Origin: Roseburia hominis | GTDB taxonomy: Bacteria > Bacillota > Clostridia > Lachnospirales > Lachnospiraceae | Assembly (NCBI GenBank): GCA_040702975.1 | Contig: CP159990.1 | Coordinates: 930,001 to 994,000, forward strand | Direction of reading: 5' to 3' | DNA length: 64,000 bases | Shown here: positions 11,732 to 16,210 of the stretch, in pieces | Position numbering within the stretch: position 1 is the first letter of the stretch | How the letters are laid out: each line of letters begins with the position of its first letter | Notes under the pieces: generated by a model | What the model saw: the letters and a program-made list of their open reading frames with translations, nothing else | Database searches by the model: none | Told to the model about the DNA's origin: nothing | Position numbers and translations under genes: made by a program

Positions 11732-11950
11732 ATGTCTAAAGCAGATGTAATTGAAATCGAAGGAACCGTAGTAGAAAAACTTCCGAACGCAATGTTTCAG
11801 GTAGAGCTGGAAAATGGACATCAGGTCCTGGCTCATATCAGTGGGAAGCTGCGTATGAATTTTATCAAGATCTTACCGGGTGACAAGGTTACACTTGAGT
11901 TATCGCCATATGATTTATCAAAAGGCAGAATTATTTGGAGAGATAAATAG
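11732..11950 (+). CDS. infA: Translation initiation factor IF-1
   Basis: IF-1 occupies the 30S A site during initiation. The 72-residue OB-fold protein begins [20 protein letters not shown] and ends KGRIIWRDK. The ATG at 11732 follows GAGGAGG; an in-frame ATG at 11717 lies inside that binding site and is rejected. It is the usual neighbour of rpmJ. Confidence 0.98.
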
Positions 11951-12088
11951 AAATAGGTATTGACTTTATTGAATTAATAGTGCTATAATATTAAAGCTGT
12001 CCGTGGGTGTATTGCGCCCACTCAGCAAAAGTTGCAATTTGTTTGCCGCTTATGCGGCAGGGAGCAAGGTAGGAAAGGAGGATTTGAC

Positions 12089-12202
12089 GTGAAAGTTAGG
12101 TCATCAGTAAAACCGATTTGCGAAAAGTGCAAAGTTATCAAGAGAAAAGGAAGCGTCAGAATTATCTGCGAAAATCCGAAGCATAAACAGCGTCAGGGCT
12201 AG
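12089..12202 (+). CDS. rpmJ: 50S ribosomal protein L36, zinc type
   Basis: A 37-residue protein starting at GTG ([15 protein letters not shown]) after AAAGGAGG. Zinc ligands C11, C14, C27 and H32 are all present, so this is the Zn-binding form. It helps fold 23S rRNA late in 50S assembly. In most Firmicutes rpsM follows within tens of bases; here 711 bases intervene, containing the RNA candidate described separately. Confidence 0.97.
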
Positions 12203-12353
12203 GCATTGAACACTTAGTGAATGCAAGCTGAAAGCGCAGCATGAATTTAGTGAGAAAGCCGTTCTTGAATCTTAGCGACGATGAGCCAATAGGCGACAGA
12301 GGAGCTTAGATGAAAGAACATGGATGACTTGTACGAAGTTTATTATTTAATTA

Positions 12354-12598
12354 GGCGGCTGATAGTAGGAAACGCAAGGGTGTGTGTAGAGCGCTTGCTA
12401 CTATTTCAAATATACAGGGAAGCACCCCACCTGCCGAGAGCTAAAGTGGTGGTTTCAAGTATATTGCGGTAAATACCGGCGGTCATTAACCGAAAGCTCG
12501 GTTGCCGGAAAGGGCGTGCATACCGACACGCCTGGGCTGGGATATCGGACAAAGAAGATCCGGTAGGGCGCTTTCGATAACTTTTGCTGCCCGCAGCC
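12354..12598 (+). ncRNA. Candidate large structured RNA between rpmJ and rpsM
   Basis: Within the 711-bp gap between rpmJ and rpsM, about 245 bases fold by hand into many nested helices. They are: a closing stem (GGCGGC 12354 with GCTGCC 12586, or alternatively GGCTG 12357 with CAGCC 12594); ATAGTA/TACTAT plus GCAAG/CTTGC with an internal bulge; AATATAC/GTATATT enclosing CCACC/GGTGG; CCGGC/GCCGG enclosing AACCGA/TCGGTT; GGCGTG/CACGCC; and TATCGGA/TCCGGTA. No credible ORF covers it. It lacks the signature sequences I know for RNase P RNA, tmRNA, SRP RNA and 6S RNA. The compact multi-helix design is like that of large clostridial RNAs of unknown role such as the raiA motif, but I cannot assign a family. 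Confidence 0.6.
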
Positions 12599-12711
12599 TC
12601 AGTTTAGGACAATATGCGAAAGCCAAGAAATGCGCAGATTGAAAAAATGACAGCAGGCAAGCTTGCTTGCATGATGGCATTTTTTGCAAGATGCATAGGG
12701 CGCAGCCCGAC

Positions 12712-12806
12712 ATCGAGATGTAGCGAAGCGGAATCGAGATGGCATTTCGTCCCTCTTGAACAAAGTAGCCAAAACACAATCGAGACGAGCGAAGCAAAGT
12801 CGAGAT
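12712..12806 (+). repeat. Pair of imperfect 28-29 bp direct repeats upstream of rpsM
   Basis: Units 12712-12740 and 12779-12806 share the pattern ATCGAGA-n-AGCGAAGC-nn-A(A/G)TCGAGAT. They lie between the structured RNA candidate and rpsM, in a stretch that otherwise holds only a short palindrome (GCAAGCTTGC near 12658). No coding potential is convincing here. They may be protein-binding or mRNA-processing elements, or decayed mobile repeats. Confidence 0.5.
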
Positions 12807-12913
12807 TATAGATTTAAAGAGGACCAAGGCCCATTCGCAGCTGGCAAAGAAGTGCTCTGACAAGCACTTCAAAGTGCAGGAACCAAGATCAAAGAAAATG
12901 GAGGAAATCACAA

Positions 12914-13282
12914 ATGGCTCGTATTGCAGGTGTAGACTTACCAAGAGACAAACGTGTAGAGATCGGTCTGACTTATATCTACGGAATTGGTAGAACAAGC
13001 TCCAACCGTATTCTCGCAGAAGCAGGAGTTAATCCTGATACCCGCTGCCGTGATCTGACTGACGACGAAGTTAAGAAGATCAGTGCAGTAATCGATGAGA
13101 CTCAGATGGTAGAAGGTGATCTTAGAAGAGAGATCGCTCTCAACATCAAGAGACTTCAGGAAATCGGATGCTACAGAGGAATCCGTCATAGGAAAGGACT
13201 TCCGGTTCGTGGTCAGAAGACCAAGACAAACGCAAGAACCAGAAAAGGTCCGAAGAGAACTGTTGCTAACAAGAAGAAATAG
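12914..13282 (+). CDS. rpsM: 30S ribosomal protein S13
   Basis: S13 in the 30S head contacts P-site tRNA and forms bridges B1a/B1b. The 122-residue product begins [21 protein letters not shown] and ends with the conserved basic tail ([24 protein letters not shown]). An AAATGGAGGAAATC site precedes the ATG. It opens the alpha portion of the cluster. Confidence 0.98.
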
Positions 13283-13412
13283 TCAGGCGAAGACCAGCTA
13301 AGTGAACGACTGAAGTTAGCTATTTCTTTGTTCACCGCACAGGGGGCGGGGAACTACCTTAAAAGTGAAACCGTATAACAATTAATATAGGAAAGTGTAG
13401 GTTAGTTTTATT

Positions 13413-13808
13413 ATGGCTAAGAAAGTTACAAAAAAAGTGACAAAAAAACGTGTCAAGAAAAACGTTGAACGCGGACAGGCACATATCCAGTCATCTTTCA
13501 ATAACACTATCGTTACTCTGACAGATGCACAGGGAAATGCTTTATCATGGGCAAGTGCCGGCGGTCTGGGATTTAGAGGTTCAAGGAAATCTACTCCGTA
13601 CGCTGCACAGATGGCAGCAGAGACAGCAGCAAAGGCAGCATTAGTTCATGGTCTTAAGACAGTAGACGTATTCGTAAAAGGACCTGGTTCAGGAAGAGAA
13701 GCAGCAATCCGTGCACTTCAGGCTTGCGGTATTGATGTAACAAGCATCAGAGACGTAACCCCGGTACCGCACAACGGATGCCGCCCGCCGAAGAGAAGAA
13801 GAGTCTAG
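13413..13808 (+). CDS. rpsK: 30S ribosomal protein S11
   Basis: S11 forms the platform near the E-site mRNA with S7. The 131-residue product has a lysine-rich N-terminus, the [15 protein letters not shown] and [14 protein letters not shown] motifs, and the C-terminal [13 protein letters not shown]. The 130-base spacer after rpsM contains further TTAG-type words, and no strong AGGAGG is visible; the nearest is GGAAAG about 20 bases upstream. Confidence 0.97.
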
Positions 13809-13845
13809 TCGAATAATTGTCGAATTATAATAGGAGGATAAGAGC

Positions 13846-14439
13846 ATGGCAGTAAATAGAGTTCCGGTTCTGAAAAGATGCCGTTCTTTAGGAATGGACC
13901 CGGTATATTTAGGAATTGATAAGAAGTCTAACAGACAGTTGAAGAGAAGCAACCGTAAAATGAGCGAGTATGCTCTCCAGTTACGTGAGAAACAGAAAGC
14001 TAAATTCATCTATGGCGTTCTTGAAAAACCGTTCAGAAACTATTTTGAGAAAGCACAGCAGATGAAAGGGATGACAGGTGCGAACCTGATGATCCTTCTG
14101 GAGTCCAGACTTGACAACGTTGTATTCCGTCTCGGATTTGCAAGAACCAGACGTGAGGCTCGTCAGATCGTTGACCACAAGCATGTACTTGTAAACGGAA
14201 AACAGGTAAACATTCCGTCTTATCTGCTGAAAGCCGGCGATGTAGTTGAGATCAAAGAGGATAAGAAGAGTTCCCCAAGATATAAAGAGATCGTAGAGGT
14301 TACCGGTGGACGTATGGTTCCGGATTGGCTGGAAGTTGACGCTGAGAACCTGAAAGGAACCGTAAAAGAGCTTCCGCTTCGCGAAGCGATTGACGTTCCG
14401 GTAGACGAGATGTTAATCGTCGAGTTGTATTCTAAATAA
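13846..14439 (+). CDS. rpsD: 30S ribosomal protein S4
   Basis: S4 nucleates 30S assembly and in several bacteria represses the alpha operon or its own gene. The 197-residue product has the N-terminal domain without a zinc Cys cluster and an S4 RNA-binding domain ([38 protein letters not shown], described by its ends LESRLD and HVLVNGK). AGGAGG precedes the ATG. Confidence 0.97.
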
Positions 14440-14454
14440 TAATTAGTACACTGG

Positions 14455-14478
14455 CTCACAGATGGTATAGTCTGTGAG
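14455..14478 (+). promoter_or_regulatory. Hairpin between rpsD and rpoA
   Basis: CTCACAGA (14455-14462) and TCTGTGAG (14471-14478) form a perfect 8-bp stem with an 8-base loop. No T-run follows, so it is unlikely to be a strong terminator. It may be an mRNA processing or attenuation element that sets rpoA levels relative to rpsD. Confidence 0.45.
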
Positions 14479-14532
14479 TCGGGATACTTCAACCCCTCAA
14501 CATTTTAAAACCCATAAGGAGGGACTAAAATA

Positions 14533-15492
14533 GTGTTTGATTTTAATAAGCCAAATATTGAGATTACAGAGATTTCTGAAGATAAGAAATATGGAAGATT
14601 CGTAGTAGAGCCTCTGGAAAGAGGATACGGTACAACGCTTGGCAACTCTTTGAGAAGAATCATGCTTTCATCCCTGCCTGGTGCTGCAATCAGCCAGATT
14701 AAGATTGAAGGGGTACTGCATGAATTCAGCTCGATTCCGGGTGTAAAAGAAGATGTAACGGAAATCGTTATGAATCTGAAGTCCCTTGCAATCAAAAATA
14801 CTTCCGAGACCGATGAGCCGAAGAGAGCTTATATTGAGTTTGAGGGAGAAGGTGTTGTGACCGGCGCCGATATCCAGGTGGATTCCGATATCGAGATCAT
14901 GAACCCGGAGACGGTTATTGCGACACTTAACGGCGGAACAGACAGCAAACTTTACATGGAACTGACGATTACAAAGGGCAGAGGCTATGTAGGCGCTGAT
15001 AAGAATAAGACAGAGGATATGCCGATCGGTGTGATTCCGATTGATTCTATCTACACACCGGTAGAGCGTGTCAACCTGACAGTAGAGAATACCCGTGTGG
15101 GTCAGATTACCGATTATGATAAACTGACTCTTGATGTATGGACAAACGGAACTCTTCAGCCGGATGAGTCTGTAAGCCTTGCGGCTAAAGTTCTTAATGA
15201 GCATTTGAAACTTTTTATCGACCTTTCTGAAGTAGCGCAGGCTGCAGAGGTCATGATCGAGAAAGAAGACGATGAGAAAGAGAAAGTTCTTGAGATGAGC
15301 ATTGATGAGCTGGAGCTTTCTGTTCGTTCTTACAATTGCCTTAAGAGAGCTGGAATCAATACCGTAGAAGAACTTACAAACAGAACTCCGGAAGATATGA
15401 TGAAGGTCCGCAACCTCGGACGCAAGTCATTAGAAGAGGTTCTGGCAAAATTAAAAGAGCTCGGTCTGGAACTAAGCCAGGGCGAGGAGTAA
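14533..15492 (+). CDS. rpoA: RNA polymerase alpha subunit
   Basis: Alpha dimerises to nucleate core RNA polymerase assembly and contacts UP elements and activators through its C-terminal domain. The 319-residue product starts at GTG after AAGGAGGG. The N-terminal domain contains [19 protein letters not shown]. The C-terminal domain (residues about 250-315) contains [17 protein letters not shown] and [11 protein letters not shown], which form the helix-hairpin-helix DNA-binding surface. Confidence 0.98.
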
Positions 15493-15673
15493 AGCGACGA
15501 GTCCTGGCACCGCGGAACAAGCTGCTAATGTTTGTTCCGACACCGCAATTATCAGGGCGAAGAATAACCTTGTAACTATCTGGCTAGTAAGCCCGATGAA
15601 GCATAACCAGATGGCATAGTGCGATAAGTCCGATGAGCGCGTATTATGTCCCGAATAATGGAGGATTAGAACA
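15493..15673 (+). promoter_or_regulatory. rpoA-rplQ spacer with hairpins and a direct repeat
   Basis: This 181-base spacer has a 7-bp hairpin (GGAACAA/TTGTTCC near 15516-15540). A second pairing (ATCTGG near 15580 with CCAGAT near 15607) encloses one copy of TAAGYCCGATGA. Another copy of that word lies near 15625. No ORF or promoter is apparent. Such a long insert within a two-gene unit that is normally tight suggests a post-transcriptional role or an inserted repeat remnant. Confidence 0.4.
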
Positions 15674-16210
15674 ATGGCAAAATATAGAAAGCTTGGCAGA
15701 ACAGCCAGCCAGAGAAAAGCATTATTAAGAAACCAGGTAACGATGTTACTTCAGCATGGAAAGATCAGAACTACCGAAGCTAAGGCTAAAGAGATCCGCA
15801 AGATCGCTGAAGGCCTGATCGCTATGGCAGTCAGAGAAAAAGACAACTATGAAGAAGTGACCATTAAGGCTAAGGTTGCAAGAAAAGACAAAGACGGCAA
15901 GAGAGTGAAAGAAGTAGTAGACGGCAAGAAAGTGACCGTATACGACGAAGTTGAGAAAAAGATTAAGAAAGACAATCCGTCAAGACTTCATGCAAGACGC
16001 CAGATGCTGAAAGTTCTTTACCCGGTAAAGGAAGTTCCATCTGCAGCGGCAGGAAAGAAGAAAAATACAAAGGAAGTTGATCTGGTAGAGAAAATCTTTA
16101 CTGAGATTGCTCCGAAGTATGTAGACCGCAAGGGCGGCTATACCAGAATTATCAAAATTGGCCAGCGTAAAGGTGACGCTGCTATGGAAGTTCTGATTGA
16201 ACTTGTTTAA
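15674..16210 (+). CDS. rplQ: 50S ribosomal protein L17 with inserted segments
   Basis: L17 lies near the tunnel exit of the 50S subunit. The conserved core is clear: MAKYRKLGRTASQRKALLRN at the start, TTEAKAKEIR, LHARRQML, and GGYTRIIKIGQRKGDAAMEV at the end. The protein is 178 residues against about 115-125 in most bacteria. The excess is a lysine-rich insertion at about residues 55-102 and a second at about 119-136. It is the last gene of the cluster, 17 bases before the terminator. Confidence 0.97.
   Translation: MAKYRKLGRTASQRKALLRNQVTMLLQHGKIRTTEAKAKEIRKIAEGLIAMAVREKDNYEEVTIKAKVARKDKDGKRVKEVVDGKKVTVYDEVEKKIKKDNPSRLHARRQMLKVLYPVKEVPSAAAGKKKNTKEVDLVEKIFTEIAPKYVDRKGGYTRIIKIGQRKGDAAMEVLIELV

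Follow-up and report, generated by a model that had tools for sequence, protein, structure and literature searches.

A known S4 leader in the rpmJ-rpsM spacer of Roseburia hominis, its conserved extension, and a possible three-strand switch at the rpsM ribosome-binding site

Gene context and spacer

The window, by which we mean the whole 64,000-nucleotide stretch of Roseburia hominis DNA analysed here, contains, in order, the genes infA, rpmJ, rpsM, rpsK, rpsD, rpoA, and rplQ, all identified by NCBIfam models with scores above cut-off. The sequence and the list of open reading frames place the end of rpmJ at 12202 and the start of rpsM at 12914, leaving a spacer of 711 bases. Spacer length was measured at 127 of 134 loci (L008-L134) and ranged from 189 to 711 bases; the window's own locus is present twice in this set, and several other loci repeat a genome already counted. 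The window's spacer was the longest, as suspected in a first-pass annotation of the bare sequence that had called it abnormally long. It is bounded by the following features:

12203..12348, plus strand: 5' flank, of which 12203-12330 is like DNA in four of seven other genomes of the genus
12618..12890, plus strand: 3' stretch, from helix B (described below) to the ribosome-binding site, carrying a dispersed repeat at ~12692-12745
12900..12916, plus strand: rpsM ribosome-binding site GGAGGAAAUCAC and start codon (ATG 12914-12916), read from the sequence
12914..16210, plus strand: downstream genes rpsM, rpsK, rpsD (encoding S4), rpoA, and rplQ (NCBIfam, each above cut-off)

The length of the spacer is explained by the 5' stretch, which is common to some relatives, together with the ~270-base 3' stretch and its dispersed repeat. 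The likeness to 12203-12330 is sited in the same spacer in two of the four genomes. No match to 12618-12890 was found at the rpmJ-rpsM spacer of the seven other genus genomes, and the repeat (GACAUCGAGAUGUAGCGAAGCGGAAUCGAGAUGG) has six further partial copies in the window's own genome; three and two of these are clustered, at a spacing of ~125 bases. The segment 12203-12330 looks like a structured element following rpmJ, and in some genomes of the genus it is found outside the rpmJ-rpsM spacer. An open reading frame of 50 codons also lies within the spacer, at 12320-12472.

Identity of the RNA in the spacer

When the whole window was compared with Rfam at the family cut-offs, no family passed; RNase P, tmRNA, SRP, and 6S RNA, whose hallmarks the first-pass view had found lacking, were rejected on this ground, as was raiA. 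The annotation had proposed an Rfam search of 12340-12610, and a relaxed search did find an S4-Clostridia leader there, at 1.6 bits below the gathering score:

12508..12607, plus strand: match to the S4-Clostridia leader RF03140 (P4, P5, GAAAGG start), 35.9 bits, cut-off 37.5, E 4.1e-7

With E values up to 10 allowed, the region 11940-12960 gave only this family, a weak match to Alpha_RBS, and a chance match to a microRNA. The RF03140 match takes in all 55 model positions, and the window's enlarged P5 stretches it to 100 bases. The GAAAGG start and the hairpins P4 and P5 of the family are there, and the element lies where such a leader is expected, upstream of rpsM-rpsK-rpsD-rpoA-rplQ. It is also homologous to RF03140 members that score above the cut-off: a single core model aligned 94 of the 100 loci it was given, the window and such members among them, at the same genomic place. 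The RNA core in the rpmJ-rpsM spacer is an already known S4-Clostridia leader.

This leader was described by Eckert and Weinberg in 2020 (PMC7247131) and serves as an example family in the Rfam 14 paper (PMC7779021). Its assignment to S4 rests on other known S4 leaders, and Table 1 of the original paper gives the basis as 'Prior' (PMC7247131, section 5). Section 10 of that paper names S4 as the protein bound by known leaders of the same gene set in other lineages, and describes the Clostridia leader as a short core for which rRNA mimicry is left open. Binding of S4 by the window's leader is a prediction, as it is in the original paper. The prior-based assignment would also allow the leader to answer to S13, S11, or L17 of the same operon, a reading that we consider improbable, given that the leaders known for these genes in other lineages bind S4 (PMC7247131).

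The first-pass annotation offered three identities, of which only the ribosomal-protein autoregulatory site gains support, from the RF03140 core, the S4 gene in the operon, and the conserved place. Its remark that the RNA looks unlike an mRNA leader finds no support. Nor does the raiA motif: Rfam contains a raiA model, and it was absent from the matches at cut-off in the window and from those with E up to 10 in 11940-12960. The third suggestion, something new, applies only to the extension and the switch proposed below, since the core is RF03140.

Occurrence in relatives and transcription context

In a draw from the family, RF03140 matched 52 of 200 genomes, 37 of them above the cut-off, and loci of other genera that share the window's place are among those that pass. 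In a draw from the class it matched 7 of 293; six of these seven are in Lachnospiraceae, and the one outside is weak and below the cut-off. DNA similar to 12340-12620 was present in 12 of 98 genomes, the window's own included. A core covariance model, R1, in which P3, P4, and P5 are paired but helix B is not, was derived from 20 sequences. It matched all 8 genomes of the window's genus, 76 of 396 genomes of the family, and 24 of 294 drawn from the order. All 24 belong to Lachnospiraceae, but so do all genomes listed from the order draw, so that this result says little about other families, and the strict filters of the large searches make absences uncertain.

At all 127 loci examined, rpmJ lies upstream and rpsM downstream; the loci had been chosen by RNA or DNA similarity, gene context not being a criterion. 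The R1 alignment was given 100 of them, second genome copies and both loci of genome G005 (L014, L085) having been excluded; the G005 and G002 (L013) cores are equally long and differ only a little. Six of the 100 loci had no match (L122, L128, L129, L131, L132, and L134). For the tests involving the ribosome-binding site, 87 distinct pairs of segment and site were kept. A set of further records comprised at least 80 loci, mostly chance matches to a 17-base pattern; 31 were picked by title and 28 matched R1. Two of the 28 had no rpsM start within reach, leaving 26 that were counted, including one whose start looks wrong (L178) and one truncated at its 5' end (L202).

Between infA and rpmJ (11960-11989) lies a promoter-like site that has 11 matches out of 12 and an extended -10, and a weaker plus-strand match was seen at 12647-12675. 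Given the strong site before rpmJ, the leader probably lies inside a transcript that starts upstream of rpmJ. A simple scan of 11900-13000 found no terminator-like site (1.2 expected by chance); transcription attenuation was rejected on this basis, and the absence fits translational control. The leader of rpmJ itself (11998-12088) contains two hairpins recognised by eye, GUGGGUG/CGCCCAC and GCCGC/GCGGC.

The length and structure of the element, and its variable distance to rpsM, would suit a free-standing small RNA, orphan or raiA-like, that lies inside the ribosomal operon by chance. We regard this as very improbable: no other Rfam family scored above its cut-off, the place is the same at 127 of 127 loci, the best promoter-like site precedes rpmJ, and part of the element co-varies with the rpsM ribosome-binding site, as described below.

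Conserved structure beyond the Rfam model

Comparison of the loci delimited the following parts:

12355..12361, plus strand: GCGGCUG motif, single-stranded-looking, at the 5' end of the element; 70 of 87 loci against a shuffled expectation of 0.5
12362..12404, plus strand: hairpin P1, AUAGUAG (12362-12368) with CUACUAU (12398-12404); two covarying pairs
12476..12508, plus strand: P3, CCGGC (12476-12480) with GCCGG (12504-12508); 94.3% of cells paired, both-side changes in 4 of 5 pairs
12512..12533, plus strand: P4, GGGCGUG (12512-12518) with CACGCCU (12527-12533); 97.6% of cells paired, both-side changes in 6 of 7 pairs
12534..12599, plus strand: P5, GGGCUG (12534-12539) with CAGCCU (12594-12599); 96.3% of cells paired, both-side changes in 4 of 6 pairs

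Over 92 distinct cores, 96.3% of the cells of P3-P5 were paired and 448 were double-changed, compared with 135 after shuffling (0 of 500 shuffles reached either value), and at most 48.4% of cells paired when the partners were slid; the alignment had been fitted to the tested structure, and the counts lean toward it. The collection of homologs from rpmJ-rpsM spacers that the first-pass annotation had recommended as a check thus yielded strong covariation in P3-P5. In P1, compared over 14 sequences, C-G and U-A alternate at two pairs; a third double change comes from one misaligned row (L040), and the measure of further pair types does not exceed that of shuffles.

Fold energy was dropped as evidence for an RNA. 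For 12340-12620 it was not unusual (z -0.89; 38 of 200 shuffles as good), and for the whole spacer z was -2.37, a value that none of just 20 shuffles equalled. The earlier claim of a structured RNA holds for the conserved element (P3-P5, P1). The terminal closing stem, which we take to be GGCUG/CAGCC, was rejected as a conserved structure: GCGGCTG occurs upstream at 70 of the 87 loci, CAGCC within the 3' part of the core at 12, and the two together at 11, and the window's CAGCC is part of P5.

The window's P5 is enlarged by an inner branched domain, and such enlargement probably lowers the RF03140 score of the loci that have it. A branched P5 domain with CUGGGCUGGGAUAUC was seen in the window's genus (12534-12599) and in records titled Mediterraneibacter or Claveliimonas (L103, L118, L120, and loci of alignment A5). 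The stretch 12467-12479 reads GCGGUAAAUACCGG in the window and GCUUAUAAUACCGG in most relatives; the former resembles what we take to be the 530 loop of 16S rRNA, GCGGUAAUAC. Between helix B and the rpsM ribosome-binding site, a hairpin-like UUUCAGRC...GRGCUG, seen by eye, is common to several other genera (L021, L025, L027, L034, L037, L040, L043, and L048) and is possibly a further element of the leader.

Judged by comparison of sequences, P1, P3, P4, P5, and helix A (below) are paired structures conserved at a single genomic place, and the data suggest a conserved element of ~260 bases at about 12355-12615, compared with the 55 positions of the Rfam model. To that model the window's element adds GCGGCUG, P1, P3, helices A and B, and the enlarged P5.

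Alternative helices A and B

Three further pairing segments surround or join the core:

12409..12465, plus strand: helix A (state A), AAUAUAC (12409-12415) with GUAUAUU (12459-12465); arms at most loci, with complementary flanks
12461..12615, plus strand: helix B (state B), AUAUUG (12461-12466) with CAAUAU (12610-12615), closing P3-P4-P5; pairing nearly invariant
12449..12456, plus strand: anti-ribosome-binding-site segment GUGGUUUC, complementary to GAAAUCAC at 12904-12911; predicted pairing probability 0.905

In helix A, an AAUAU-type sequence following P1 pairs with the strand before P3. The outer parts of the helix differ greatly between loci, with GUAUAUU/AAUAUAC, UAUAAUAUU/AAUAUUAUA, CAUUGUAUU/AAUAUAAUG, and others, these arms being chosen by complementarity. 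When the arms were anchored only on [AG]ATAT, which was possible at 65 of 87 loci, the flanks still showed a mean complementary run of 2.11 compared with 1.12 when swapped (0 of 5000; 35 distinct flank pairs). Covariation in helix B is weak, as 91.7% of its cells were paired compared with 90.8% after shuffling, a value reached by 9 of 500 shuffles. Some support is given by L012, which has a C-G replacement, and by six loci whose sequence differs there: read by eye, four have UUACU/AGUAA and two only UACU/AGUA. Helices A and B use the same AUAUU and are therefore mutually exclusive. In the unconstrained fold of the window, the pairing of the anti-site segment had a probability of 0.905, helix B 0.116, and helix A 0.001.

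Predicted pairing with the rpsM ribosome-binding site

Across the 87 loci, the 20 bases at and before the shared strand paired with their own ribosome-binding site at -7.96 kcal/mol on average and with swapped sites at -7.26 (0 of 5000 swaps as good); none of the swap tests, that on helix A included, takes relatedness into account. Shuffled segments paired less well (-5.34 kcal/mol; 0 of 200). The signal persisted when 60 distinct ribosome-binding sites were each used once (3 of 20,000 swaps as good) and when the ten bases before the start were taken alone (5 of 20,000; 50 classes), and three control segments gave no own-over-swapped signal. The best complement to the site adjoins the shared strand at 42 of 87 loci, compared with a mean of 12.8 and a maximum of 21 in 100 shuffles. 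With ties counted against it, the own site ranks only about the median of all sites (0.518 and 0.455), which means that only some loci carry the signal.

The clades differ. In the window's clade (41 loci), 13 and 3 of 20,000 swaps were as good, and in the mixed remainder (34 loci) 29 and 169. The swap test fails in the TATAATATT clade (12 loci; 19,860 and 19,908 of 20,000 as good); there, CCUCC occurs within 60 bases upstream at 8 of 12 loci compared with 0 of 75 elsewhere, which could also reflect shared ancestry. Paired differences between segment and site include GUGAUUUC/GAAAUCAC, GGAUUCCUUC/GAGGGAAUUU, GUCCUC/GAGGAC, GUCUUUU/GAAAGAC, and GAUUAUUC/GAAUAAUC. Among the further records, 10 of 26 reach -7 kcal/mol, and the window's genus accounts for three of the 10; of those titled Mediterraneibacter, 4 of 14 do. 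Within the window's clade, comparison of the loci indicates joint variation of the ribosome-binding site and the segment next to the shared strand.

State A or B was also enforced in folding at the 56 of 87 loci where both arms were found. The two states differ by a median of 0.75 kcal/mol, and 48 of 56 loci lie within 5. The region of the ribosome-binding site was predicted to be unpaired at 0.56 in A and 0.465 in B, with lower values in B at 38 of 56 loci (Wilcoxon 3.6e-5), and shuffling the segment raised the value in B to 0.544. Where pairing in B is marked, the site is less open in B at 22 of 27 loci, partly by selection; at the other 29 of the 56, the two states are alike (16 of 29, p 0.20). 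At the window locus the predicted openness was 0.47 in A, 0.218 in B, and 0.651 in B with the segment shuffled.

It is possible, if rather unlikely, that the S4 leader represses without hiding the site, for example by entrapment of the 30S subunit, and that the complementarity is a by-product of the pyrimidine-rich strand of helix A. Entrapment is described for E. coli (PMC10931766), and the complementarity is absent or weak at part of the loci; the near-median rank of own sites also fits. Such a by-product sits less well with the advantage of own over swapped sites in mean energy, which extends to the ten bases before the start and to the window's clade (its 3 of 20,000), or with the opening of the site in state B when the segment is shuffled.

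Discussion

We somewhat favour the reading that the S4 leader represses the rpsM-rpsK-rpsD-rpoA-rplQ operon, and that it does so as a three-strand switch. The middle strand (~12448-12466) would pair either with an upstream copy, forming helix A from 12409, or with downstream sequence, namely the helix B partner at 12610-12615 and the rpsM ribosome-binding site at 12904-12911. S4 may bind the junction of P3, P4, and P5 that helix B closes. An excess of S4 would then hold state B and the ribosome-binding site would be covered, whereas without such an excess, helix A, being transcribed first, would capture the middle strand and ribosomes could start. The direction of control and the order of folding are those we infer for this scheme.

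Known S4 leaders resemble the element in part. The S4-Clostridia family shares P4, P5, the GAAAGG start, and the place before the operon. The E. coli alpha-operon site (Alpha_RBS, RF00140) controls the same genes, and there S4 traps one of two mRNA conformations; it differs in having a pseudoknot over the ribosome-binding site and in trapping the 30S subunit (PMC10931766). The window's RF00140 match falls on the rpsM start and, at 17.5 bits against a cut-off of 38, does not amount to membership. The Bacillus rpsD and Fusobacteriales leaders carry a GUAA motif where the Clostridia leader has GAAA (PMC7247131, section 10) and are described in the same paper as other structures; neither had an Rfam match in the window.

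As far as our searches reach, the new part is the extension beyond the RF03140 model and the proposed output, the leader itself being known. The sections of the original paper cited here give no regulatory output for the Clostridia leader (PMC7247131), and a partial literature search, mostly of titles and the beginnings of abstracts, yielded no description that we recognised of an extended or switching form.

More tentatively, and at slightly less than even chances, the Lachnospiraceae S4 leader as a whole may be a three-strand switch driven by a protein, with an output strand that evolved together with the rpsM site. The sequences of this strand would be clade-specific (GUGAUUUC, UUCCUC, GAUUAUUC, and, for the TATAATATT clade, perhaps a CCUCC lying further upstream), and in the window the pairing would have been kept across an insertion of ~270 bases. 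If the larger element is right, it tells which RNA suits a binding test, for the short core may lack the closing helix. It would also provide a specific path, open to testing, by which S4 could act on an operon encoding the alpha subunit of RNA polymerase as well, in common gut bacteria.
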